DNA of 64,000 bases from Caulobacteraceae bacterium (lineage in GTDB: Bacteria > Pseudomonadota > Alphaproteobacteria > Caulobacterales > Aquidulcibacteraceae), in NCBI GenBank assembly GCA_009773335.1, contig WRPF01000002.1, positions 72,000-135,999 of the forward strand, given 5' to 3'. The translations under genes and the position numbers were made by a program. The notes beneath the pieces are model-generated. The model saw only the letters and a list, made by a program, of their open reading frames with translations, ran no database searches and was not told where the DNA came from. Shown here one piece after another: positions 7,716 to 42,063 of the stretch; positions within the stretch are counted from its first letter, which is position 1, and the number at the start of each line of letters is the position of its first letter.

Positions 7716-10700
7716 TCAGGAGCGGCGCGGTTGCGGTGCGTTCGCCGTGTCGCTCGACCAGACGCGCTGGCCGAACTCACCGTTGGCGCGGGCGCTGGCC
7801 GGGCGGGCGCGGAAGCCGCCGACACGCGTCCGGATCTGCGCGATCTGCTCGGTTGCGATCTGCGATTCCAGCGTCGCCATCCGGGCGCGGGCGTCATTGT
7901 CGCCGGCCCGTGCCGCGATCGAGAACCAGTAGAGCGCCTCCGATGGGCTCGCAACGGTGCCACGGCCTTGCTGGTAGAGAACGCCGAGGTTGAACTGGCT
8001 GTCGGCGACACCGAGTTCGGCCGCCTGGTGGAACCAGCGGAACGCGGACGCTTCGTCGAGCGGGGCGCCTTCGCCACGGGCGTAGAACACTCCGAGATCG
8101 TGCATCGCCTTGCGGTTGCCGGCTGCTGCGGCCCGTTCGGTCCATTGACGCGCCTGCGCCAGATCGACCGGCACGCCTTCGCCGCGCTCGAAGAGCTTGG
8201 CGAGGCGGTACTGCGCCATGGCGAGACCCTGGTTGGCGGCGCGGCGCAGCAGCGACACGCCTTCCGGCGTCTGGCCGCCCGAAAGGCGCTGCAGGCCCAG
8301 TTCGTATTGCGCGACGGCGTCGCCGCGCAGGGCGGCCTGGTCGAGCGAGATCGCGATCGGTCCGGTGGTGGCGGTCGCCGCGATCTGGCGGGTCTGGGCC
8401 TCAAGCGAAGTCTGGGGCCCCTGAACAGCGCGGGCCGACGAGACTCGGTCCGTCGTCGCCTTGGAGGTGCTGCGGGCTGCAGCGTCGGCTTTCGCCTTGG
8501 CGGCGGCGTCGGCGATCGAGGTGCTGGCGACCCCCGGGTCGACAGCGCCGGTGATATCATCAGGCGCAATGCCGGTCTCCGGCGCTGCGGGATCCAGAGC
8601 GACCGGCGGCGTGGCCGGCAGGGCGGCGGCGGGCGAGGTTTCCGGCTCGGGCGCCGGACGTGTGTCTGTGCGTGCCTCGTCGCCGCGCTTGGTCCAGAAG
8701 TATGCGCCTCCCGCGAGCGCGACGGCGATCGCTCCGGCTGCGCCCCAGACGACCACGCGGTTCGGACCTCGCAAGCCTGCGATGGGTGCGGCGTCTTCCG
8801 ACCCGTTGCGGCTGCGTTTGCCTTGCGCCTGAGAGGTTTGCGCTGCGCGACGGGCGGCGGTCAGGTAGCTTTCCCGCGTCTGTGGTGCGGTCGTCTCGAT
8901 TTCCGGTTCAAAAAGGTCTTCGACCGCCTGAGCCTCGACCGCCTGACTTTCGGCCGGGGATTCAGGCTGTTCCCATGCCAGGGCGGCGTCCTCTTCCGCA
9001 GGCGCTTCGACCGCCACCTGCGGCGTCGGCTCCGGCGTGTGGATTTCCGTCACCGTTTCCTCGAACGAGTCCAGCGCCGACGCTTCGTCTTCGAGACTGG
9101 CGACGCCGAAATCATCGAGTTCGTTGCGCGCGACGCTGGGTGCGTCGGGAATGTGGAAGTCTTCGCTGCGGTTGTCGGCCTCGTTCGCGGCGGTGATGGG
9201 CGTATCGAATACGACTTCCACCGGCGGTTCGGCGGACAATGCATAGACCACCGAAATGTCAGGCGATTTCGGTTCGCCGTACGACGACCGCTTCACGCCC
9301 GGCACGCTGTCTTCCACCGCCTGCAAACGCTGGGCGAGGCTCGACATCGCTTTCTGGACGGGCGAGATCGAGGAGCCCGAGAGTTCCTCGGCTTCCATAA
9401 GGCGCGAGTTGAGGTTCGAGATCGCGTCCGTAAGGCGCGACGATTGACGCTCTTCGCTTTCGACGATGCGCTCGGTGAGCTCGCGCGCCATGGTGTCCTG
9501 GCGCTGGGTGAAGCGCTCGGCCATGCGCGCAACCTGTTCGCCGACGTGCTCGATGGCTTCCGCGCTGCGGCGTTCGACGCCGTCGAACCGCTCGTCGAAG
9601 CGTTCGGCAAGGCGACCCATCTCCGCGCCGAAGCGCTCGGCGCTGGCAAGTTCGCGATGATCGATTTCGGTGAGGCGCTGGTCGAGCGAGAGCGACAGGC
9701 GTTCGACTTCCTCGCGCACGGCGACCGCAGCCGCATCATCGTTGCGGGTTTCCAGCGAACGCAGGCGCCGGTCGACGCTCTCCGACATGCGCCGGATCTC
9801 TATGGAGATCGCTTCGATGGTGTGCGCCTGACGGCGTTCGGCGGCCGCAACGCGGCGGTTTACGTCTGCGAGCGCCGCGTCGAGCTCGGGGCCATTGTCG
9901 GAGCCGACCAGACCCGCCGTGGCGATCTGCGCGGCGATCTCCGAGCGGATCTCGGTCATCGAGTTCGCCATGCCGTCGAGGCGCTGCTCGACCAAGGCGC
10001 GGAACGCATCGGTCTCGACGTGCGCGCCGGGGGCATGCTCAAGGGCGCGGATGGCCTCGTTGGCTGTCGCTTCCGCTGTCGCCAGACGGTCCGCAAGGCG
10101 CGCGATCGTGCCCTCGACGGTCTGTTCGAGCGTTTCAATCCGCGTCGTGAATTCGTCTGACAGGCCGTTGCGGCTGTGCAGCGCCTCGATTTCCTGCGCT
10201 GTCTTCTCGCGGCCGTCGCGCACGGCTGCGGCAAGGCCCGTGATCTTCGCGTCGAGCATGTGCAGTGCGGCGCGGTCCTGACCACGGCCAGGGTCGCGCT
10301 CGATCCGCTCAAGCCGTTCGTCGAGTTGCTGATGGAGCTGGCGCACGGCTTCGCCATCGCCGGAGGCGCCAAACGTGGCGCCAGCCTCGACGAGCTTCAC
10401 ACGCTTCTCGAGATCGAGCTGCGCGGCGCGCACCTGATTGATCGCCGCCGCCGCGCCCATGCGCAGGTTGGCTGCCGCTTCGCGCGTCGCCGCCTCGATC
10501 TGCTCAAGCCGCTGCTCTATGCCCCGTTGACCCTCCGCCACTTCGGCCGTGGCGCGCGCAGCGGAATCGCGCGCGATGGATTCGATGGTTTCAAGACGAT
10601 CCGCGAGCGTTCGCTGCGCGGACTCGATATCCAGGACGGCGCTTGCGGTGCGGGTGTCAGCGCCCGCGGCGGCGACGCGCTCGGCGAGTTCCTCGTGCGC

Positions 10701-26644: not shown

Positions 26645-26721
26645 GGTGGCGTAGCTCAGTTGGTTAGAGCGTGGGATTCATAACCCCAAGGTCGGTGGTT
26701 CAATTCCACCCGCCACCACCA
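26645..26721 (+). tRNA. tRNA-Met (anticodon CAT), CCA encoded
   Basis: A 77-nt cloverleaf: acceptor GGTGGCG/CGCCACC, D arm GCTCAGTTGGTTAGAGC, anticodon loop TTCATAA, T arm GGTGG-TTCAATT-CCACC, discriminator A and genomic CCA. The anticodon stem has one A-C mismatch next to the loop. The acceptor 1-72 pair is G-C, which excludes initiator tRNA. CAT could also be tRNA-Ile2 (lysidine-modified), but elongator Met is more likely. A mobile-element remnant begins immediately downstream, so the 3' end may be an attachment site. Confidence 0.95.
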
Positions 26722-27024: not shown

Positions 27025-27303
27025 ATGACCGACACGTGGACCGTACAAGATGCGAAGGCGCAGCTCTCTGAATTGCTGCGCCGTGCGCGCGCAGGTGAGC
27101 CGCAGCGGATCGGTGTGACGGATGCGTGTGTGGTTATTTCAGAAAGGGAGTGGGCGCTCGCCAATCCAACAGCTCTGGGGGCCTGGCTTGTGGAGAGCGC
27201 GCCGCGTGGAGAACCTCTGGCGCTTCCGTCCCGCACGACACGTCGCGGGGATCCGTTCGCGGAGGATGGTCATGGCGAGCGTCGGGGAAAGGATCAGAAA
27301 TGA
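27025..27303 (+). CDS. Phd/YefM family antitoxin
   Basis: A 92-residue protein whose N-terminus is the Phd/YefM DNA-binding fold (WTVQDAKAQLSELLRRARAG, then EPQRIG and VVISEREWAL). The charged, flexible C-terminus (RGDPFAEDGHGERRGKDQK) is typical of the toxin-binding tail. Its stop overlaps the VapC start by four bases (ATGA), the standard toxin-antitoxin coupling. It should bind the palindrome upstream and repress the pair. Confidence 0.82.
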   Translation: MTDTWTVQDAKAQLSELLRRARAGEPQRIGVTDACVVISEREWALANPTALGAWLVESAPRGEPLALPSRTTRRGDPFAEDGHGERRGKDQK

Positions 27304-27722
27304 GCCGTGTTCTCCTCGACACAAATGTCATCTCCGAATTGGTGCGACAGCGCCCCGAACCGCAGGTCGTTGAATTTGTTCGCGCTCAGACCGACCCTCT
27401 GATTTCGGTGCTGACGCTCCATGAGATCACCTATGGTGCCGAACGCGCGCCTGACCCTGCGCGACAAGCCAGGCTCGTTGCATGGGCTGCCGAAATCAGA
27501 AGCCAGTTCGGCGGTCGCATTGTCGATATTGACGCCGAGGTCGCCGAGACGGCAGGGCGCTTGCGCGCCGCGGCCGACGCGCAAGGTTCCCCTGCAGACA
27601 TTGTCGATGCGCTCATTGCGGCTTGTGCCCTCGCGCGAGGTGCGGCGATCGTAACCCGCAACGTCCGCGACTTCGTTCCATTTGGACTGACTGTCGTAGA
27701 TCCTTGGGCAGCGCCGGGATGA
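27300..27722 (+). CDS. vapC: PIN-domain toxin VapC (FitB-like ribonuclease)
   Basis: A 140-residue PIN nuclease with the expected acidic residues: Asp7 in LLDTNVISEL, Glu in LHEITYGAER, Asp in SPADIVDALIAA and the late Asp in RNVRDF. VapC toxins cleave tRNA or rRNA in an Mg-dependent way when the antitoxin is degraded. The gene is translationally coupled to the antitoxin. Its location next to the tRNA suggests it helps retain the integrated element. Confidence 0.92.
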   Translation: MSRVLLDTNVISELVRQRPEPQVVEFVRAQTDPLISVLTLHEITYGAERAPDPARQARLVAWAAEIRSQFGGRIVDIDAEVAETAGRLRAAADAQGSPADIVDALIAACALARGAAIVTRNVRDFVPFGLTVVDPWAAPG

Positions 27723-27723
27723 T

Positions 27724-27945
27724 CTATACCCGTTCCCGCCCATACTCGCTCGTCGAGCCGCGCGTCCGCTTCACCGCCCACTCGTCGAGCACGCGGTCGA
27801 CGTAGCGCACGAGACGCGGCCCATACTTCACGAAGGGCGGGCCTTCGCCGGTGACGCGCCAGCGGTTCAGGGTGTGCTTGGAAATCTTCAGCCGTACGGC
27901 GGCTTCTTCGACAGTCAGCAGGATATCGCTGTGCATATTCCCCAT
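27724..27945 (-). CDS. AlpA/excisionase-like helix-turn-helix protein (HTH_17)
   Basis: This 73-residue protein contains a MerR-like/AlpA HTH (LTVEEAAVRLKISKHTLNRW) followed by the wing GPPFVKYGPRLVRYVDRVLD. Such small proteins are usual in integrative elements as excisionases or element regulators. It ends one base from the end of vapC, on the opposite strand. ATG 27945 chosen; ATG 27936 is possible. Confidence 0.82.
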   Translation of the reverse strand: MGNMHSDILLTVEEAAVRLKISKHTLNRWRVTGEGPPFVKYGPRLVRYVDRVLDEWAVKRTRGSTSEYGRERV

Positions 27946-28198: not shown

Positions 28199-28570
28199 TC
28201 AGTGGTCGGCGCGGTCCGGATCGATGGTGCGTGATGCGAGCCAGGCGTCGAGCAGGGCGGTGCGATAGCCCACCATGCGGGCGCCGAGCATCGTGTGTGG
28301 CGGCCCCATGCGTGCCCGCCGCCACGCTTTCAGCGTGGAGATGGAGACGCCGAGATAGCTCGCGGCGTCACGGGCGTTGAGGACGGCGGGGCGATCCGCG
28401 AGCGCGGTCTTGCGGGCGATGGCGCTGCGGCGGGGCTTTGCGATCGTCGCTGGCGGCGCAGCGCGCGCGGGCGAGGTCTCGATCTCAAACAGCCCGAGCT
28501 GATTGGGATCGATGCGCGTGCGCCGTGGCGTCTTGCGGTCGCCGGCCTTGCGCTTTCTGGGCCGTTTCAT
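28199..28570 (-). CDS. Second AlpA-like helix-turn-helix protein
   Basis: A 123-residue protein with a basic N-terminal extension (MKRPRKRKAGDRKTPRR) and a C-terminal HTH_17 domain (LNARDAASYLGVSISTLKAW, then RRARMGPPHTMLGARMVGYR). It resembles the protein at 27724 and may be a diverged paralogue or the element's second regulator. It is 62 nt downstream of the relaxase gene on the same strand and may be co-transcribed. The 253 bp on its other side (27946-28198) holds no gene I can support. Confidence 0.76.
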   Translation of the reverse strand: MKRPRKRKAGDRKTPRRTRIDPNQLGLFEIETSPARAAPPATIAKPRRSAIARKTALADRPAVLNARDAASYLGVSISTLKAWRRARMGPPHTMLGARMVGYRTALLDAWLASRTIDPDRADH

Positions 28571-28632
28571 GGGTCCCACCCCCGTCAAACCTCAGGGACA
28601 GGCAAGCAAGCCGCGCGCCATGGGCCTTTGCC

Positions 28633-30414
28633 TTAACGGTCGCGCCCGACGTCACGTCCGAGGCTGCGTACGACCTCAAGGGCAGGTGAGACGCTCCTGG
28701 CGACATAGCGGCCGGCATCCCTGGCGATATCGCGGCCGATCTCGCGCATGTTTCGGAAGGCGACCCGGTCGCCCTCCCGCAGCGCTTCTCCGGGCGCCAC
28801 TGGCGCGAGCGCAAAGCTGCGCCCGCGTTCGAGCACGGCCGTGGGCCCCGCATGAAGCTCGACCACCTCGCGCACCTTCCACGCGTCGTTGGGGGTCAGC
28901 GATGGATCTGCGCGGCTCTTCAGCGTGTCGCGCTCGGTCTCGCGATCGAGCCGGTCCAGCTCAGCCTGTCTCAGGCTGTCGCGGACGCCGTCTCGGAAGT
29001 GAAAGACGCCAGCCCTGTCGCGGTCGCCCAGTCCGCCGCGTTCATGCGCCAGCGCGCGGGCCTTCAGCGCCCGGTCGACGTTCTCGGTTTCGGGCAATTC
29101 GCGCGCGGTGCCGCGCGACAGGCGATCCAGCTCGCGGTCGAGCGCCGTGTCGGCGATGGCGAGCACCTGCTCGCGCACCGGATGGAAGGCGAGACGTTCC
29201 ACACGGGCGCGGCGGCCTTCGGGATGGAGCGCCACCAGCGAGCCTTTTTGCAGGTCGTCTATGGCCTCCATCGAGGTGTTGAGGAGAATGCGGCCCTCAT
29301 AGCCCGCATCGATCACAAGGGCTGCGCGCTCCGGATCCTCGCCGCGCGGCCCCATCTCGCGCACCTCGCCGCGCACCACGCCCATGCGCGGCTCGTAGAG
29401 ACGGGCGCGCACAAGTTCGCGGCGGACGTCGACTGATCGGCGCGCCTGGAGACGATCCGTCCAGCCAGGCTCAAACCGGATCACGTTGCGCTTGGTCTCG
29501 CGGGCGAGACCCTGCTTTTCGAGTTCCCTCGCGCGGGCGCGCAGGGCGTTTGCGAGCGCTGGATCGCGATCTGCGCCAAGCCGTTGCAAACGCACTTCGC
29601 CACGGTCGTCGAGATCGCGTTCGATCATCCGGTCGAGCCGGGTGAGGGAGCGCGCCTCCACCTCACGGGTGCGCGCCAGCCGCTCGTCCTCGATCCCACG
29701 TGGACCCAGCCACTCGGTCGCGACCTCGCGGGCGCTCTCGCGCAGGCCGTGGGAGATGTACGCCCGCGGCAGACGCAGCTCGATCCCGTCACGGCGCATG
29801 CCACGCACGATCACATGGGTATGGGGATTGTCGGTGTTGCAGTGATCGGCGGCGAGCCAGTCCAGCTCGACGCCCAGATCGCGCTCGATCCGGGCCATCA
29901 CGTCCCGGGTGAAACCGTGGGTGTCGTCGAGCCGCGCGCCGCTCTCCGGCGCGAGCACCATGCGGAAGTGGCGGGGATCGTCCTCGGACCATTCGCGCAG
30001 GCGGTCTGTCGCATCCTCGGCGATGTCGTGCTCGCGATCGTAGAAGCGGCCTTTCTCGCCGTCCTCGCCCGCGCCGTCGCGCTCCAGGTAGCGCCCATGC
30101 GCGAGGAGCTTGCCGCCGCCGCCTGACCCACCGCCGCCGCGCGCAGAATGGTTGGCGTAGCCGACCTTGACGATGACGCGCTGGCGACCGTCGGCGCTCA
30201 TGGCGCGCGCTGTTGTGTTCCGCGCACCGCCGCCGATGCGCCGACCCGACAGCATCTTCGTCAGACGCCCGCCGAGAAGTCCGCTCGTCGCGCGTCCGCT
30301 CGCGCCGGAACGAACACCGCGCAACGCGTGCAGCCGCACGACGTCCTCGCGTGGCGCCCCCGTTCTGGCGATCCCCGTGCTCCCGAACAGATCAAACTCG
30401 TCGTCCGACGACAT
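28633..30414 (-). CDS. DUF3363-type relaxase / mobilisation nuclease (VirD2-like)
   Basis: The 593-residue product has a relaxase core: Tyr candidates in VKVGYANHS and AHGRYLERDG, HFRMVLAPESG, and the metal-binding three-His motif DHCNTDNPHTHVIVRG (His191, 198, 200). A long helical, Arg-rich DUF3363 C-terminal region follows. Such relaxases nick the transfer origin of integrative conjugative elements and remain covalently bound to the DNA. Start taken at ATG 30414 (MSSDDEFDLFGSTG), the usual N-terminus; an upstream extension to 30450 lacks similarity. It is divergent from the TraG-like gene, with a 318-bp region between them that may be the oriT. Confidence 0.88.
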   Translation of the reverse strand: MSSDDEFDLFGSTGIARTGAPREDVVRLHALRGVRSGASGRATSGLLGGRLTKMLSGRRIGGGARNTTARAMSADGRQRVIVKVGYANHSARGGGGSGGGGKLLAHGRYLERDGAGEDGEKGRFYDREHDIAEDATDRLREWSEDDPRHFRMVLAPESGARLDDTHGFTRDVMARIERDLGVELDWLAADHCNTDNPHTHVIVRGMRRDGIELRLPRAYISHGLRESAREVATEWLGPRGIEDERLARTREVEARSLTRLDRMIERDLDDRGEVRLQRLGADRDPALANALRARARELEKQGLARETKRNVIRFEPGWTDRLQARRSVDVRRELVRARLYEPRMGVVRGEVREMGPRGEDPERAALVIDAGYEGRILLNTSMEAIDDLQKGSLVALHPEGRRARVERLAFHPVREQVLAIADTALDRELDRLSRGTARELPETENVDRALKARALAHERGGLGDRDRAGVFHFRDGVRDSLRQAELDRLDRETERDTLKSRADPSLTPNDAWKVREVVELHAGPTAVLERGRSFALAPVAPGEALREGDRVAFRNMREIGRDIARDAGRYVARSVSPALEVVRSLGRDVGRDR

Positions 30415-30732
30415 CGCGCGTGCGCTCCCGACGGGTGCGGCGCGGCCCACGAAAGAAGGTGCGCCCGCAACAGTGAAGGTGCGCCGATGCTATGGCGCAC
30501 AACAGAAAACACAAGCGCAAACTTCGTCTTTAACTTGCTTTAACAACTATAATTCAGCATACTCGAAACATACATCAAGCAACAACAAAGCAATACGAAG
30601 CGAGATGACTGTGTACAACCAAATGCGAAAGCGGCGGCACGCGATCCTGCGGGCGGCAGGCGCGAAAAGGTGTGTCACGGGCCGCGCACTGGGCCGCGAA
30701 CGGCGTCGTGACATGGGCCGGGAGCGCTCTCG
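30415..30732. other. Candidate transfer origin / regulatory region between relaxase and TraG-like genes
   Basis: This gap holds no gene. It carries an 11-bp direct repeat GAAGGTGCGCC at 30455-30465 and 30475-30485 (20-bp period). A perfect 7-bp inverted repeat GTGCGCC...GGCGCAC at 30479-30500 overlaps the second copy. Next is a strongly AT-rich stretch (about 30500-30620) in otherwise GC-rich DNA. Repeats next to an AT-rich block beside a relaxase gene are characteristic of oriT regions, but no nic site can be assigned. Confidence 0.4.
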
Positions 30733-32445
30733 GTGATCCGCGCGCTGCACTGCTTCGCAACCTGGGCGCTGATCTTGCTCGGGCTCGTTGTCGGCACATG
30801 CTGTGCTGCGCTGTGGTCGCCGATTGCGGGCATCTTCGGCGCGATCATCGATGTGCTCATCGGCTTGGTGTGCGCGTGGATCGGCTGGCGGATCGCAGGC
30901 GCGCCGACGTTGCATGTGCCGATTGAAGAAGAGCGCGTGCGCTGGGATGCGCTGGGCGACGCAGGGCTATGGCGGGGCGAGGGATGCGCGCTGGGCGCCG
31001 TGCATCGTCATGCGTGGTCGTCGTGGCACGCGCTGCTCGGGAAGCTGCCGAGCACGCTCTTTCACCCGCGCGGCCATCGTCTCATGCTCGGGGCTGCGGC
31101 GGACGATACGTTTTTCGCTGCGGCCTCGGCCTGGCGACACGCGCTGATCTATGTCGACACGCGGGGCACAAGCGAACGTCTCGAGCGCGACGATGTCGTG
31201 CGCTTTGCGCCGGGACGGGTCGACGGCGCGCGCATCAACCCGCTGCTGATGATCCGGCGCGGGCCTCACGCCTGGCGCGACGCCTACATCCTGGCGTCGG
31301 GGCTACTGGGCGCCGGCGCCTCGGGTGACGCCATCGCGACGCTTGCGGCGGTGCTGCTCGATCATCTGCACACCGCCGCGCCGGAGGATCGCACGCTCGG
31401 GGGCCTGCGTCGCCGGCTGCTCGATCGCGAAACCGCGCTGACGGCGCTCGTCTTCGCCGTGCACGAGAAGGGGCGTGATGGCGCCTGGCGGAGCGATCCC
31501 GAGATCGCCCGCTTGATGCGCTTCTGGAGAAGCGACCCGGCGATGGCGCGACTGCATCTGGCGACGGCGGCGCAGGCGCTCGCCGGTTTCCAGGACGGCC
31601 GACTTGCGGAGGCGACGTCGGCGCTTGATCTGCGGCTCTCGGACGTCGCAAACGTTGGCCCCAGAACGATCATCCTGGAAGCGCCGCCGGGCGACGCGGC
31701 GCGCTACGGCCCGTTCTTCGCGGCGCTGCTGGGCCAGCTGATCAGTCAACTCACCGACGCGGTGGAGACCGATGTCTTCGGACGCAGGAAGACGACACGC
31801 GTCCTGCTGGCGATCGACGATCCCGCGCTCATCGGCGCCATCCCGCTGCTGGCGCAGCGGGGCGCCGTCGCGCCGCGCTGCGGGCTTGAGCTGCTGGTGC
31901 GGTCGGAAAGCGCTCAGCGCGCCGTGGCGCTGTTTGGCGAGGGTGGTACGCTTGAGGCCTATGGCGCCATCGCCGCGATCGGTCCTCTCCGTGCTGACAT
32001 CGCCGAGATACTGAGCGCACACGCGGGAACGCGTTCCGTTGTCCGGCTGCGACAGGGGCAGGGCGATTGGTGGAGTCGCCTCCTGCCTGTGGTCGATCTG
32101 GCTGCGCTGCCGCGCCTCCCGGTGGCACGACTGCGGCGCGACGGAGACGGGGAAGTGAACATCGTCATCGCGAAGTTCGGTTTGGTCCGTGGGCGCGCGC
32201 TGCCGGCGCCGACCGGATGTCTGCGTCAGAGTACAGAGGCGCGGACGCCGCCGCCCCACGACTGGACAGGGGCGGCGGCGCCCGCGCCGGTGATCGAGGG
32301 CAAGGCGCTTCCGGTGCGCCCGGCGTCGCTGCCGCTGTTTGAGGGTTCGGAGACCAAGGAACCGCACATCCTCGCCCCACTCGCCGCCGGCGCCGTCGGC
32401 AAGAAGCTGCGCGCCGGCTTCCGGCGCGGCGCCCGACGCACCTGA
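30733..32445 (+). CDS. VirD4/TraG-like coupling protein homologue lacking a recognisable Walker A motif
   Basis: An intact 570-residue frame starting at GTG 30733 (GGGAG upstream). Two N-terminal membrane segments (about residues 8-28 and 31-55) match the VirD4/TraG anchor. The segment VVRFAPGRVDGARINPLLMI (residues 155-174), followed by RRGPHAWRDA, matches the TraG region that normally reads FDP...ARFNPL-E-R-G---VRDAQ. However, where the P-loop should be (about 117-130) the sequence is RLMLGAAADDTFFA, with no GKS/GKT. The Walker B position reads VLLAIDDPALIGAIPLL instead of a DE pair. It is followed by a CopG-like gene, as traG is in Trb-type elements. It is probably a non-ATPase derivative. 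Homology is inferred from pattern and context. Confidence 0.55.
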   Translation: MIRALHCFATWALILLGLVVGTCCAALWSPIAGIFGAIIDVLIGLVCAWIGWRIAGAPTLHVPIEEERVRWDALGDAGLWRGEGCALGAVHRHAWSSWHALLGKLPSTLFHPRGHRLMLGAAADDTFFAAASAWRHALIYVDTRGTSERLERDDVVRFAPGRVDGARINPLLMIRRGPHAWRDAYILASGLLGAGASGDAIATLAAVLLDHLHTAAPEDRTLGGLRRRLLDRETALTALVFAVHEKGRDGAWRSDPEIARLMRFWRSDPAMARLHLATAAQALAGFQDGRLAEATSALDLRLSDVANVGPRTIILEAPPGDAARYGPFFAALLGQLISQLTDAVETDVFGRRKTTRVLLAIDDPALIGAIPLLAQRGAVAPRCGLELLVRSESAQRAVALFGEGGTLEAYGAIAAIGPLRADIAEILSAHAGTRSVVRLRQGQGDWWSRLLPVVDLAALPRLPVARLRRDGDGEVNIVIAKFGLVRGRALPAPTGCLRQSTEARTPPPHDWTGAAAPAPVIEGKALPVRPASLPLFEGSETKEPHILAPLAAGAVGKKLRAGFRRGARRT

Positions 32446-32455
32446 GGAGAGGCCC

Positions 32456-32824
32456 ATGCGCACGCGCCGTCAGGTCACGCTGCACCTCGATCCCCACATT
32501 CTCGCAGCCCTCGACGCCGAGGCCATGCGGCGCGGCCTCAACGTGAGCCGCGCCGCAAACGATCTCCTGCGCCGCGTGCTTCTCGACGGCGACGACGCCG
32601 CCATCGCCGATCAGGTGCGCACGCGTCTCGATCGCCTCGACAAGCGCGACGCCCACCGCGCGCGCGATCTCGCGCTGATCAAGGAGGCGCTGCTGCTCTT
32701 CGTGCGTCTGTGGATCGAATACGCCGGGCCGCTCGAAGAGAGCGACGATCCCGATGCGGAGGCGGACGTCGAGGCGCGGTATCAGGGATTTCTGGAGATG
32801 CTGGCGGGGCAGGTCGGGGGGTGA
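32456..32824 (+). CDS. Ribbon-helix-helix (CopG-like) protein of the conjugation module
   Basis: A 122-residue protein whose N-terminus is a ribbon-helix-helix fold (RRQVTLHLDPHILAALDAEA, then MRRGLNVSRAANDLLRRVL), with a helical C-terminal part rich in Leu and acid residues. The ATG at 32456 has GAGGAGA upstream, 10 nt after the TraG-like stop. In intact Trb-type elements a CopG-family gene lies between traG and trbB. Here nothing resembling trbB follows, which suggests the mating-pore operon was lost. It may repress the module or bind oriT. Confidence 0.75.
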   Translation: MRTRRQVTLHLDPHILAALDAEAMRRGLNVSRAANDLLRRVLLDGDDAAIADQVRTRLDRLDKRDAHRARDLALIKEALLLFVRLWIEYAGPLEESDDPDAEADVEARYQGFLEMLAGQVGG

Positions 32825-33821: not shown

Positions 33822-35086
33822 TTGTCCTTTTCACGATCGGCGACCCTTGTCGGGTTCGCCTGCTTTGCAGGCATTGTCGCCACGCAGGAAGCGCGTGCGC
33901 AGGCGCCCACTGAGGGGCCGCTAACCCGAGAAGACGCGCTTGTGCGGGCGCTTGGCGATGACCCAAGGCTGCTGGCCGCCGGCGCGTCGGAACGCGCGGC
34001 CGAAGCGGGCGTCGCGCAAGCTGGACGTCGGCCAAACCCGACCGTCGAGGTCCTGTCGGAGAATGTCTCGGGTTCGGGTCCGTACAGTTCTCTCGACCGC
34101 GCCGAGACGACTGTTTCCTTTTCCCAGCCCTTGGAGCTGGGCGGCGACCGGCATGCCCGGCGGACCCTGGCGGAGCGCGATCTCGCCACGGCGCGGCTTT
34201 CCAGCGTTATCCGGCGTCTCGACCTGTTCGAAGAGGTCGAAGTCGCGTTCGTCGAAGCGCAGGCGGCGCAAGCGCGTTGCGTGGTCGCCGAGGAACGGCT
34301 GGGCGTTGCTCGCGGACTTGCCGAGGCCGTGGCGCGACGGGTTGGCGCCGCCCGCGATCCCTTGATGGCCGGCGCACGCGCGCAGACACGTCTGGCCGAA
34401 GCCGAAATCGAGGCAGAAGCGGCGCGGCGGGGCGCCGAGGCCGCCATGGCCCGTCTGGCCAGCTACTGGGGCAGCGGGGCGGAGCGGATCGATCTGGCGT
34501 CGTTCGAACGCATGGCGGACCGTCCGTTGTCGTCTGGCGCCGATGCGCCCGATCTTGCGCTTGCGACTGCGGAGGAAGAACGGGCGAAGGCGCGCATCGA
34601 GATCGAACGCGCCCGTGGCGTGCCCGATCCGAACCTCCAGGCCGGATGGCGGAGGTTCAGCGACACGGATGACACGGCGCTCACCTTCGGCGTTTCGATC
34701 CCGCTGCAACTCTGGGATCGCAATTCCGGCGGCGTGTCGCGTGCGCGTGCGGAACGTGATCGCGCCGGATTTGAAACGCGTGCTCGTGCGCAAGCGCTGG
34801 CCCGTCAGCAGGCGACGCTGGCGACGCAACGGGCAGGCGCCCGCCACGAAGTTGAAGCACTCGACGCGCGGGTCATTCCAAACGCGGAGGAAGCGCTCAG
34901 GCTTGCGCATCAGGGGTACTCCCGTGGCGCGTTCTCCTACCTCGACGTTCTCGAGGCGCAGCGTTCGGTCTCCGATGCGCGACTGCGCCGGATCGCAGCC
35001 CTTCGCACATATCACCTCGCCGAAGCGGCATTGGCGCGCCTGACAGGCGCCCATGCCGATGTGGCCCCAGTTCAGGAACAGCCCCG

Positions 35087-35090
<4 letters not shown>
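33822..35090 (+). CDS. czcC: Outer-membrane efflux channel, TolC family (CzcC)
   Basis: A 422-residue protein with an N-terminal signal peptide (to about ARA/QA) and two helical/strand repeats of the outer membrane factor family: PNPTVEVLSENVSGSG and PDPNLQAGWRRF mark the beta strands, and long Ala/Arg/Glu helices form the periplasmic tunnel. The start is TTG 33822 with GAGGAGGG upstream. Its stop overlaps the czcB start (ATGA). It provides the outer-membrane exit for the CzcCBA pump. Confidence 0.9.
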
Positions 35091-39516
<4,426 letters not shown>

Positions 39517-39556
39517 CGCGTCTCATTGATTTCGACCTCTTCAGGATTTGGTCTCG

Positions 39557-40291
39557 ATGACAAACACAAACCACAAACCCGCGCGACCGCGTTTGATGTC
39601 TGCGACGCCGCTTGCGTTCGGCGTGATGTGTCTTGCCCTCATGGTGGACGCCACGCTTGGCATGGCCCTGGCGCATGGCGTTGCAGAAGGGGACAAGGGC
39701 TTCATCCAGGAAAGCTCCGGCGTCCTCTTCTGGCCGTTTGTCTATCTCGGCGCCAAGCACATGATCACGGGTTACGATCACCTGCTGTTTCTGGCTGGCG
39801 TGATCTTCTTCCTGTACCGACTGAAGGACATCACGATCTACGTCACGATGTTCGCCGTCGGGCATTCGATCACGCTGCTCGCCGGGGTGCTGACCGGCAT
39901 CCAGGTCAACGCCTATCTGATCGACGCGATTATCGGCTTGTCGATCGTCTACAAGGCGTTGGACAATCTCGGCGGGTTCCAGAAGTGGGTCGGCTTCCAG
40001 CCGGATGCGAAGATCGCCACGCTGGTGTTCGGTCTGTTCCACGGCTTCGGTCTCGCCACGAAGTTGCAGGATTTCGAACTGTCCCGCGATGGCCTCGTTC
40101 CCAATCTCATTGCCTTCAACATTGGTGTTGAGATGGGCCAGATACTCGCGCTGTCGGCGATCCTGATCGCGATGGGTTTCTGGCGAAAGACGCCCAGCTT
40201 CCGCATGCACGCCACCGCCGCCAACATCGCCTTGATGATCGCTGGCTTCCTCCTCGCCGGCTACCAGATGTTCGGCTACTTCACCGCTTGA
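39557..40291 (+). CDS. HupE/UreJ family metal permease
   Basis: A 244-residue membrane protein with a family-typical start after a leader: FWPFVYLGAKHMITGYDHLL contains the HxxxxxDH metal motif, and LVFGLFHGFGLATKL and FNIGVEMGQI follow. HupE/UreJ proteins carry Ni or Co across the inner membrane; within czc operons they may be secondary cation carriers. Six or seven hydrophobic helices are visible. ATG 39557 chosen, 40 nt after czcA; a TTG at 39548 is possible. Confidence 0.86.
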   Translation: MTNTNHKPARPRLMSATPLAFGVMCLALMVDATLGMALAHGVAEGDKGFIQESSGVLFWPFVYLGAKHMITGYDHLLFLAGVIFFLYRLKDITIYVTMFAVGHSITLLAGVLTGIQVNAYLIDAIIGLSIVYKALDNLGGFQKWVGFQPDAKIATLVFGLFHGFGLATKLQDFELSRDGLVPNLIAFNIGVEMGQILALSAILIAMGFWRKTPSFRMHATAANIALMIAGFLLAGYQMFGYFTA

Positions 40292-41154: not shown

Positions 41155-42063
41155 TCAGGCCGCCGCTATGGTCATCCCGGACGGTGCGGCGAGTTTTGCG
41201 AGCTTCCTCAAATTCTGTGCTGCCGCGGCGAGGGTGAATTCGTCGTGAGCTCCGGATGGTCCGCGCAAGCGGAGCCGGTCGAGTTTCAATATGCGCTTCA
41301 GATGCGCTACCAGCATCTCGACCTTCTTTCGATCGCGGCGTGACTGCTCAAGTTCGGGCGCCGCATTGATAGCTCTGGCGACATCGCGGGCGGCCTCGTG
41401 CACGCTGCGGATGACCTTTCGATGTGGCTGTCCTGGGCAGCAGCGCTGTTTCAGGGCGCATGCGTCACAGTCCCGTTTGTTGGCGCGGTAGAGCCGTTGA
41501 CCGGCTTTGGTGACGCCGGAACGGTACTTCTGAAACCGGCGTTGAAATTGCTTCAGCGTCTTTCCGGCTGGGCACGTGTAAATTCCCGCTTCCGCATCAA
41601 AGGAGAAATCAGAGCGATTGAACGTTCCGTCCGTGCGGTCGCCTTTGTCCCACACCGGCACGTGCGGCTCGATTTTCCTCTCGCCGACCATCCACGCCAA
41701 CATTTCTGCTGTGCCATACGCCGTGTCGCCAATGAGCCGCTTTGGCTTCAGACCAAAGCGGCCCTCAGCGCGTTCGATCATCGTCTTCGTCGCGTTGACC
41801 TCCGCAGTGCGCAAAGCGGGCGCGGCGGCGACATCCATGATCACGGCATGTTTGATGTCGATCAGGTAATCCGTGCACCAGCCGAAGAAGGCCGGTCTGC
41901 CGACAGCCGCGGTCAGGCGTGACGCCGGATCAGACAAGGAAATCTCCTTTGGAGGTGCGGCTTCCCGATCAATGCCTTGAGGTATTCGCGCACCGCGCGG
42001 CTTGGGCCGCTTCCCCCGGCTCCGCCCGTCCAGTCGTGATCGTCGCCGCCATCGTCAACAAGA
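41155..42063 (-). pseudogene. IS1182-family transposase, frameshifted and N-terminally truncated
   Basis: The last ~260 codons are intact and show IS1182 motifs: FGLKPKRLIGDTAYGTAEML (second Asp), SFDAEAGIYTCPAGKTL, a Cys cluster (KRDCDACALKQRCCPGQ) and RRDRKKVEMLVAHLKRILKL (catalytic Glu region). Upstream, homology continues in another frame (SRAVREYLKAL then DREAAPPKE), so one base was lost near 41972. A stop codon and loss of similarity follow near 42060. The N-terminal catalytic half is missing. This remnant marks the right edge of the metal cassette. Confidence 0.8.

Follow-up and report, generated by a model that had tools for sequence, protein, structure and literature searches.

The window analysed here, a stretch of DNA of 64,000 nucleotides, harbors a gene for a TraG/VirD4 paralogue without an ATP site, which we name TraGpsi. 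The protein belongs to a family that forms a branch separate from the ordinary TraGs, has lost the ATP site and is conserved; these three points are firm. The best reading is that TraGpsi is kept as a structural part of the mobilization module of integrative mobilizable elements of the Hyphomonadaceae, the host family.

An intact frame of 570 codons for a VirD4/TraG homologue was already seen in a sequence-only reading of this DNA, and both parts of that claim were confirmed. The frame has zero internal stops, its codon usage resembles that of coding DNA (GC of 0.55 at codon position 2 and 0.81 at position 3), and the segment ARINPLLMIRRGPHAWRDA, quoted in that reading as characteristic of TraG coupling ATPases, is present. 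The NCBIfam IncP TraG model matches residues 151–369 of the window protein with E 2.6e-11 and 42.5 bits, the cut-off of the model being 674. The TraGpsi family profile aligned by hhalign with nine ordinary TraGs at a probability of 100 and E 3.5e-42 over 525 columns. On this evidence the window gene is a real and intact, full-length homologue of the TraG/VirD4 coupling proteins. The VirD4-type two-helix anchor held in part: two N-terminal helices are predicted in the window copy, but 23 alignment columns of the periplasmic part between them, present in the six relatives of that alignment, are missing.

Pfam has no family for the 570-residue protein and matched none of 15 TraGpsi members at E 0.01, so genes of this kind are easily missed in annotation. 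A search of the PDB with the window protein as a single sequence gave zero matches, and a profile search gave two weak unrelated matches and no coupling protein. PADLOC matched none of 15 members, and a known defence role of TraGpsi therefore gets no support. The features of the region are collected in Table 1.

Table 1. Features of the TraGpsi module and its surroundings, in window positions.
Feature	Position	Strand	Remarks
tRNA-Met	26645..26721	+	adjoins module
Phd/YefM-like antitoxin	27025..27303	+	under Pfam's curated cut-off
PIN-domain toxin (VapC-like)	27300..27722	+	
HTH_17 (excisionase-like) protein	27724..27945	-	similar genes in several related loci
HTH_17-like protein	28199..28588	-	just under Pfam cut-off; similar genes adjoin the relaxase in several related loci
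DUF3363/RlxS-like relaxase	28633..30450	-	605 codons; tyrosine (AHGRYLERD) and HxH (NPHTHVIVRG) motifs
Conserved non-coding block	30528..30560	+	candidate oriT nic region and/or TraGpsi promoter (inferred)
TraGpsi, TraG/VirD4 paralogue without ATP site	30733..32445	+	GTG start, 570 aa
Walker A equivalent	31087..31119	+	LGAAADDTFFA (ordinary TraG IGASRSGKGRG)
Walker B equivalent	31804..31845	+	LLAIDDPALIGAIP (ordinary TraG LILVLDEFPMLGRMP)
RHH (CopG-like) gene	32456..32824	+	122 codons; likeliest start ATG 32456; RHH_1 below cut-off

The loss of Walker A, which had been called from the missing GxxxxGKS/T, is real, but that pattern is the wrong criterion for the TraG family. The P-loop GK is found in 0/18 TraGpsi members versus 29/29 ordinary TraGs compared. 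All 29 ordinary TraGs carry (A/G)(S/T)R(S/A/T)GK(G/T), for instance ASRSGKGRG; in three TraGs from named plasmids the stretch reads PTRSGKGVG. Because GxxxxGKS/T also misses every one of these 29 relatives, it is a non-discriminating test. The 29 sequences are the family-profile finds at E 1e-5 in the loci examined, 25 from the host family and 4 from another family of the same order; three PF02534 loci of the window's own genome (L001, L006 and L007) lie outside these finds and were left out of the comparison.

In the joint alignment the P-loop of TraGpsi is two residues shorter, with the S and G columns gapped in 17/17 members. The lysine column holds H in 11, F in 3, I in 1, N in 1 and a gap in 1, and never K. 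The arginine column two positions past it is D in all 17. The P-loop site is likewise altered in the 18th member (L048), which is truncated by a contig end. In three members (L043, L046 and L048) a GK dipeptide occurs a few residues N-terminal to the site, each time out of register with the P-loop.

The earlier statement that Walker B lacks the DE pair is correct as well: the LDEF of ordinary TraGs is mostly (I/V)EA in the TraGpsi family and IDDP, with D-D in place of D-E, in the window copy. In the KGEL segment K and E are lost, K being mostly replaced by R, and the loop of about 13 residues after K is gone. Among ordinary TraGs 159 columns are at least 90% conserved, of which TraGpsi keeps 36 and does not keep 123, a column being counted as kept when present in at least 70% of the members. 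Among the kept columns are T, A, G, Y, P and W in the transmembrane/periplasmic part and, beyond the second strand, N-P-L, G and D. The alignments thus show the loss of ATP-site residues throughout the family, and TraGpsi is presumably devoid of ATPase activity. A conserved nucleotide-binding domain is given as the defining motif of type IV coupling proteins (PMC7431656); TraGpsi, by its sequence, has no such domain with Walker A and B.

The family was searched for in 398 genomes of the order and then in 60 genomes of the host family. Eighteen TraGpsi loci were found in 12 of these 60 genomes, scoring 417–865 bits. The next-best matches reach at most 181 bits, and those inspected are ordinary TraGs. 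In a sample of the class (385 genomes) and in one of the phylum (398 genomes) the window's own genome gave the sole family-level match, the best other match being 128 and 120 bits, respectively; since scoring was limited to the top 3 candidates of each genome, a low-ranked copy may be overlooked in these two samples. Genome contigs searched with the single window protein gave no match, and viral contigs gave no TraGpsi match. In the plasmid collection 100 and 26 records had distant matches, mostly annotated as TraG or T4CP, with none at 80% cover. Among the open-access papers that the literature searches covered, no title or start of an abstract describes a coupling protein without an ATP site.

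A tree of 17 TraGpsi and 27 ordinary TraGs splits the two groups by one branch with support of 100/100. This split, taken from an unrooted tree, fits a single loss of the ATP site. The longest end branch in the family (1.62) belongs to the window copy, which has no close relative. The grouping of the window copy with the two copies of one genome (G038) may be due to long-branch attraction, according to the warning of the tool. The truncated L048 was left out of the joint alignment and the tree, ordinary rows of 560 residues or fewer were excluded from the tree, and L047 and L051 entered both the tree and the P-loop alignment without their N-terminal read-through. A further alignment (A1) comprises 15 of the 18 members; L051 has one unread residue.

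The frame is open in 18/18 TraGpsi copies, with L048 running off its contig. The dN/dS ratio, computed by the method of Nei and Gojobori within five TraGpsi clades, is 0.18–0.36 in 22 of 23 pairs, the window copy standing outside these clades for want of a close relative. The pair dropped from the range, L054/L055, shows 0.00 changes both ways at two decimals and a ratio of 1.47. The corresponding values are 0.07–0.33 for the relaxase (21 pairs) and 0.07–0.20 for the RHH gene (18 pairs with a value). TraGpsi is therefore under purifying selection, mostly weaker than that on its neighbours. The suggestion that selection maintains a non-ATPase role is thereby borne out for the clades of the family, in which the ratios lie well below 1.

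Conservation of the transmembrane/periplasmic part is 0.42 in TraGpsi and 0.41 in ordinary TraGs, and that of the basic tail is similar as well (0.35 and 0.38). The two ATPase halves fall to 0.57 versus 0.78 and 0.43 versus 0.72, the helical insert to 0.50 versus 0.70 and the C-terminal part to 0.33 versus 0.61. These values exclude F_L055, F_L047, F_L049 and F_L008, ordinary rows of 560 residues or fewer, and the very divergent ordinary rows L041 and L032.

The fold was predicted by AlphaFold from seven sequences, and the model of the window TraGpsi is of low confidence (pLDDT 52, pTM 0.48). Foldseek places TrwB on top with E 1.2e-7. VIA gives TrwB a Z score of 17.4, with an rmsd of 4.9 over 325 residues; VirB4 follows at 16.6, tied with TrwB by the rule of the tool, and DndH comes next at 15.6. 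Because VirB4 ties with TrwB and DndH is close behind, the fold alone cannot single out coupling proteins. A model made of L072 is poorer still (pLDDT 50, pTM 0.36), and TrwB is its only Foldseek match below 0.001. The predicted fold would accordingly be described as RecA-like and TrwB-like, of the HerA/FtsK class, with the assignment to TraG coming from the sequence comparison.

The relaxase lies divergent to TraGpsi in 17 of 18 loci. In 17 of 18, too, an RHH gene stands directly downstream of TraGpsi; the exception in each case is a contig end, so that both arrangements hold in 17/17 checkable loci. The partnership with a divergent DUF3363 relaxase and an RHH gene, proposed from the window alone, is thus a property of the homologues that share the P-loop loss. 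The window relaxase matches DUF3363 with E 1.5e-11 and the RlxS model with E 1.7e-60, the latter below the cut-off of the model. Its tyrosine and HxH motifs are kept in 17/17 module relaxases. The stop codon of TraGpsi overlaps the start of the RHH gene as ATGA in 15 of 17 loci and as GTGA in one, and there is no overlap in the window. The product of the RHH gene is a probable relaxosome accessory protein.

Two module relaxases are irregular. At L053 the relaxase gene (8239–10175) is broken into two reading frames, next to open frames for TraGpsi and the RHH protein. The relaxase of L052 is truncated by a contig end. Relaxases 45–53% identical to that of the module by blastp also occur at L107, L109 and L110, with no TraG-like gene in the stretch examined (the L107 contig ends 2.5 kb upstream), which speaks against a strict dependence on TraGpsi. 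Contig ends truncate two further loci, L106 and L108.

The intergenic region between relaxase and TraGpsi is 282 bases long in the window and contains the conserved block of Table 1. A 12-mer in this block recurs in 17/17 aligned loci, as CTTTATCTTGCT in 16 of them and as CTTTAACTTGCT, with one change, at 30528–30539 of the window; in most loci CTTTATCTTGCT is followed by TTNTGNGA. A 32-base pattern of the block, built from these same loci, has 14 exact matches in the 12 module genomes, all at modules, and the reversed control has 0. Four loci have no match to the pattern, namely the window, both G038 copies and the truncated G271:C317. As to its role, the block may serve as an oriT, as a promoter of TraGpsi or as both. 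We take it to resemble the nic core of IncP. Inverted repeats in the intergenic region amount to a short palindrome at the start of TraGpsi, so the oriT assignment stands on the conserved block and its presumed likeness to the IncP nic core. A second candidate nic site, ATCCTGC at 30644, was rejected: its sole recurrence among the 17 regions is as ATCCTGT, within the coding part of TraGpsi of L043.

In three pairs of a compact clade the homology extends over 3.8–4.4 kb and the flanks are otherwise unrelated; for one pair a contig end truncates the comparison on one side. L054 and L055, in contrast, share nearly 10 kb. A tyrosine integrase or a remnant of one lies near the modules L053/L074, L054/L115, L055/L116 and L124, with weak cases at L044 and L120. 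Within the 64-kb window no integrase was found. The tRNA-Met beside the window module is a possible integration site, and no direct repeat of its end occurs in the window and about 10 kb on either side. The window element is presumed to be mobile.

Several further observations concern these surroundings. The compact modules stop sharply about 190–210 bp past the relaxase (L045 at 10590, L046 at 4277, L048 at 3672, L050 at 9895 and L057 at 4390), and their ends are preceded by ...GTGGGGCA or a variant. AGCGGAC(N)(T/C)TC, a possible target or end motif, lies 20–50 bp beyond the end in four of the five, with a near match in the fifth; its background is 12 matches in 957 kb of all loci, which partly overlap. 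At L074 (4694–7899) an integrase, MqsA, MqsR and two HTH_17 genes stand beside the module, forming an element more complete than the one in the window. In the window, genes for outer-membrane efflux, HlyD-type, RND and HupE/UreJ-like proteins lie 3' of the module (33822–40291) and are possibly cargo. A transposase (41155–41937) comes after these transporter genes.

PF02534 coupling-protein matches occur in 12/12 module genomes, G038 having only one, of the shorter kind, and PF03135 (TrbE/VirB4) matches occur in 11/12. TrbE is also found in 37 of 48 genomes without a module, a difference that is not significant (Fisher p 0.43); its presence therefore fits the use of a helper without testing it. 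On the contig of the window (C265) a search for these two families gave no match with either. PF03135 was absent from the module contigs, several of which are short, except in the single-contig genome G187, where it lies more than 600 kb away. Both TraGpsi copies of G038 (L047 and L049) are without transmembrane helices and this genome has no PF03135 match, so membrane docking is not general.

The reading that we prefer, to which we give about even odds, is that TraGpsi is an ATPase-dead coupling paralogue that docks its own relaxosome on a resident Trb system, with the energy supplied by the resident. The relaxase and the RHH protein would assemble a relaxosome at the intergenic candidate oriT. 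TraGpsi would bind this relaxosome through the helical insert and the basic C-terminal tail; the C-terminal tail of TrwB is described as recruiting the relaxosome (PMC12857230). Most members would sit in the inner membrane through the TraG-like two-helix anchor and would present the substrate to the resident Trb mating channel, alone or mixed with resident TraG, while resident TraG and VirB4/TrbE would be the source of energy. We infer the oriT, the relaxosome binding, the docking and the mixed assembly. The conservation of the transmembrane/periplasmic part and the linkage to relaxase and RHH gene favour such a role of adaptor or receptor, and there is a precedent in MobB of CloDF13, a coupling protein that a mobilizable plasmid owns and that has an extra role in relaxation (PMC7431656). 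Against it, the helical insert, which is the proposed binder of the relaxosome, shows about the same degree of relaxation as the ATPase halves. TraGpsi is unlikely to be the sole receptor without a helper coupling protein, because classic coupling proteins mutated in the Walker A lysine are reported to lose transfer (PMC7431656). The wider proposal, that in a lineage of mobilizable elements a coupling ATPase became a pure receptor which recruits its own relaxosome and joins the assembly or channel of a helper TraG, we hold at somewhat short of even.

The same mutants make a dominant-negative decoy a serious rival, since they are inactive and a foreign chimeric coupling protein is reported to be dominant negative, lowering resident transfer by about one order of magnitude (PMC7431656). 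Such a TraGpsi would join or compete with resident TraG at the channel, lower the transfer of rivals and play no role in the transfer of its own module. The TraG-like anchor and fold combined with the missing ATP site agree with this, and Osa and PifC are described as targeting rival coupling proteins (PMC5696584). Known fertility-inhibition genes, however, are characterized there as rapidly moving accessory genes, at variance with the fixed linkage of relaxase, TraGpsi and RHH gene and with the overlapping stop and start codons of the latter two. An anchorless form in G038, a genome without a PF03135 match, also speaks against a decoy, and we regard it as unlikely. Adaptor and decoy had both been put forward in the sequence-only reading; neither of the outcomes that it named as refuting, a fold that is not RecA-like or homologues in random decay, was seen in the low-confidence model and in the clades analysed.

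We put at the same low level the possibility that TraGpsi is a relaxosome accessory factor only, which would hold or regulate the relaxase at oriT, maybe at the membrane, without contact to the channel. The constant relaxase and RHH partners agree with this role, as do the anchorless members of G038 and the aid that MobB of CloDF13 is said to give to relaxation (PMC7431656). The transmembrane/periplasmic part is nevertheless conserved in the anchored members, and its TraG-like T, A, G, Y, P and W are kept in 76–94% of 17 members. That TraGpsi is a decaying pseudogene or a relic coupling protein is very improbable: the window copy has the longest end branch, no periplasmic loop and no close relative, but all 18 frames are open, dN/dS is low in nearly all pairs and the loss is common to the whole branch.

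Two roles are ascribed to coupling proteins, recognition of the DNA substrate and the powering of its transfer, and they are difficult to disentangle. If TraGpsi acts as a docking paralogue, substrate recognition would be separated from energy supply in conjugation. A conserved TraGpsi with its own relaxase offers a means of studying recognition without the motor. It also hints at an additional route by which mobilizable elements may take advantage of conjugation systems.

The module shares features with two kinds of mobilizable element. Like CloDF13, it combines a relaxase with a coupling-protein homologue on a mobilizable element and would borrow the pore of another system; unlike TraGpsi, MobB of CloDF13 is a working coupling protein in the account of PMC7431656. 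Like the integrative and mobilizable elements treated in PMC5704250, it has its own relaxase, integrases or their remnants near several modules, and no VirB4/TrbE match near. The strategies given for those elements include a relaxase with a coupling protein, a relaxase with or without an accessory factor, and a relaxase with an accessory factor and some pore proteins (PMC5704250); none of these three involves a coupling protein without an ATP site.

The closest likeness of the protein is to the TraG of Trb (IncP-type) systems, with which TraGpsi shares the N-terminal anchor, the helical insert in a RecA-like core and the C-terminal part. It differs from Trb TraG in the missing Walker A, the altered Walker B and the loss of the KGEL residues and loop described above. 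An ordinary TraG followed by an RHH gene occurs in the window's own genome (L112) and on one named plasmid, as it does with TraGpsi. Four named plasmids with a related relaxase were inspected, of 12 among the matches listed and of 304 matching. In two of the four the relaxase and traG stand side by side on one strand; in one of these an annotated CopG gene is next, and in the other an unnamed gene, trbB, trbC/virB2, virB3 and trbE follow. The remaining two have traG farther away or outside the inspected stretch. Because relaxase and traG are co-directional in two of four plasmids, the divergent relaxase looks like a trait specific to the module, which also differs from Trb elements in having no VirB4/TrbE match nearby. 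The module looks like a relaxase-traG-copG block in which the relaxase was inverted and the trb genes and the ATP site were lost.
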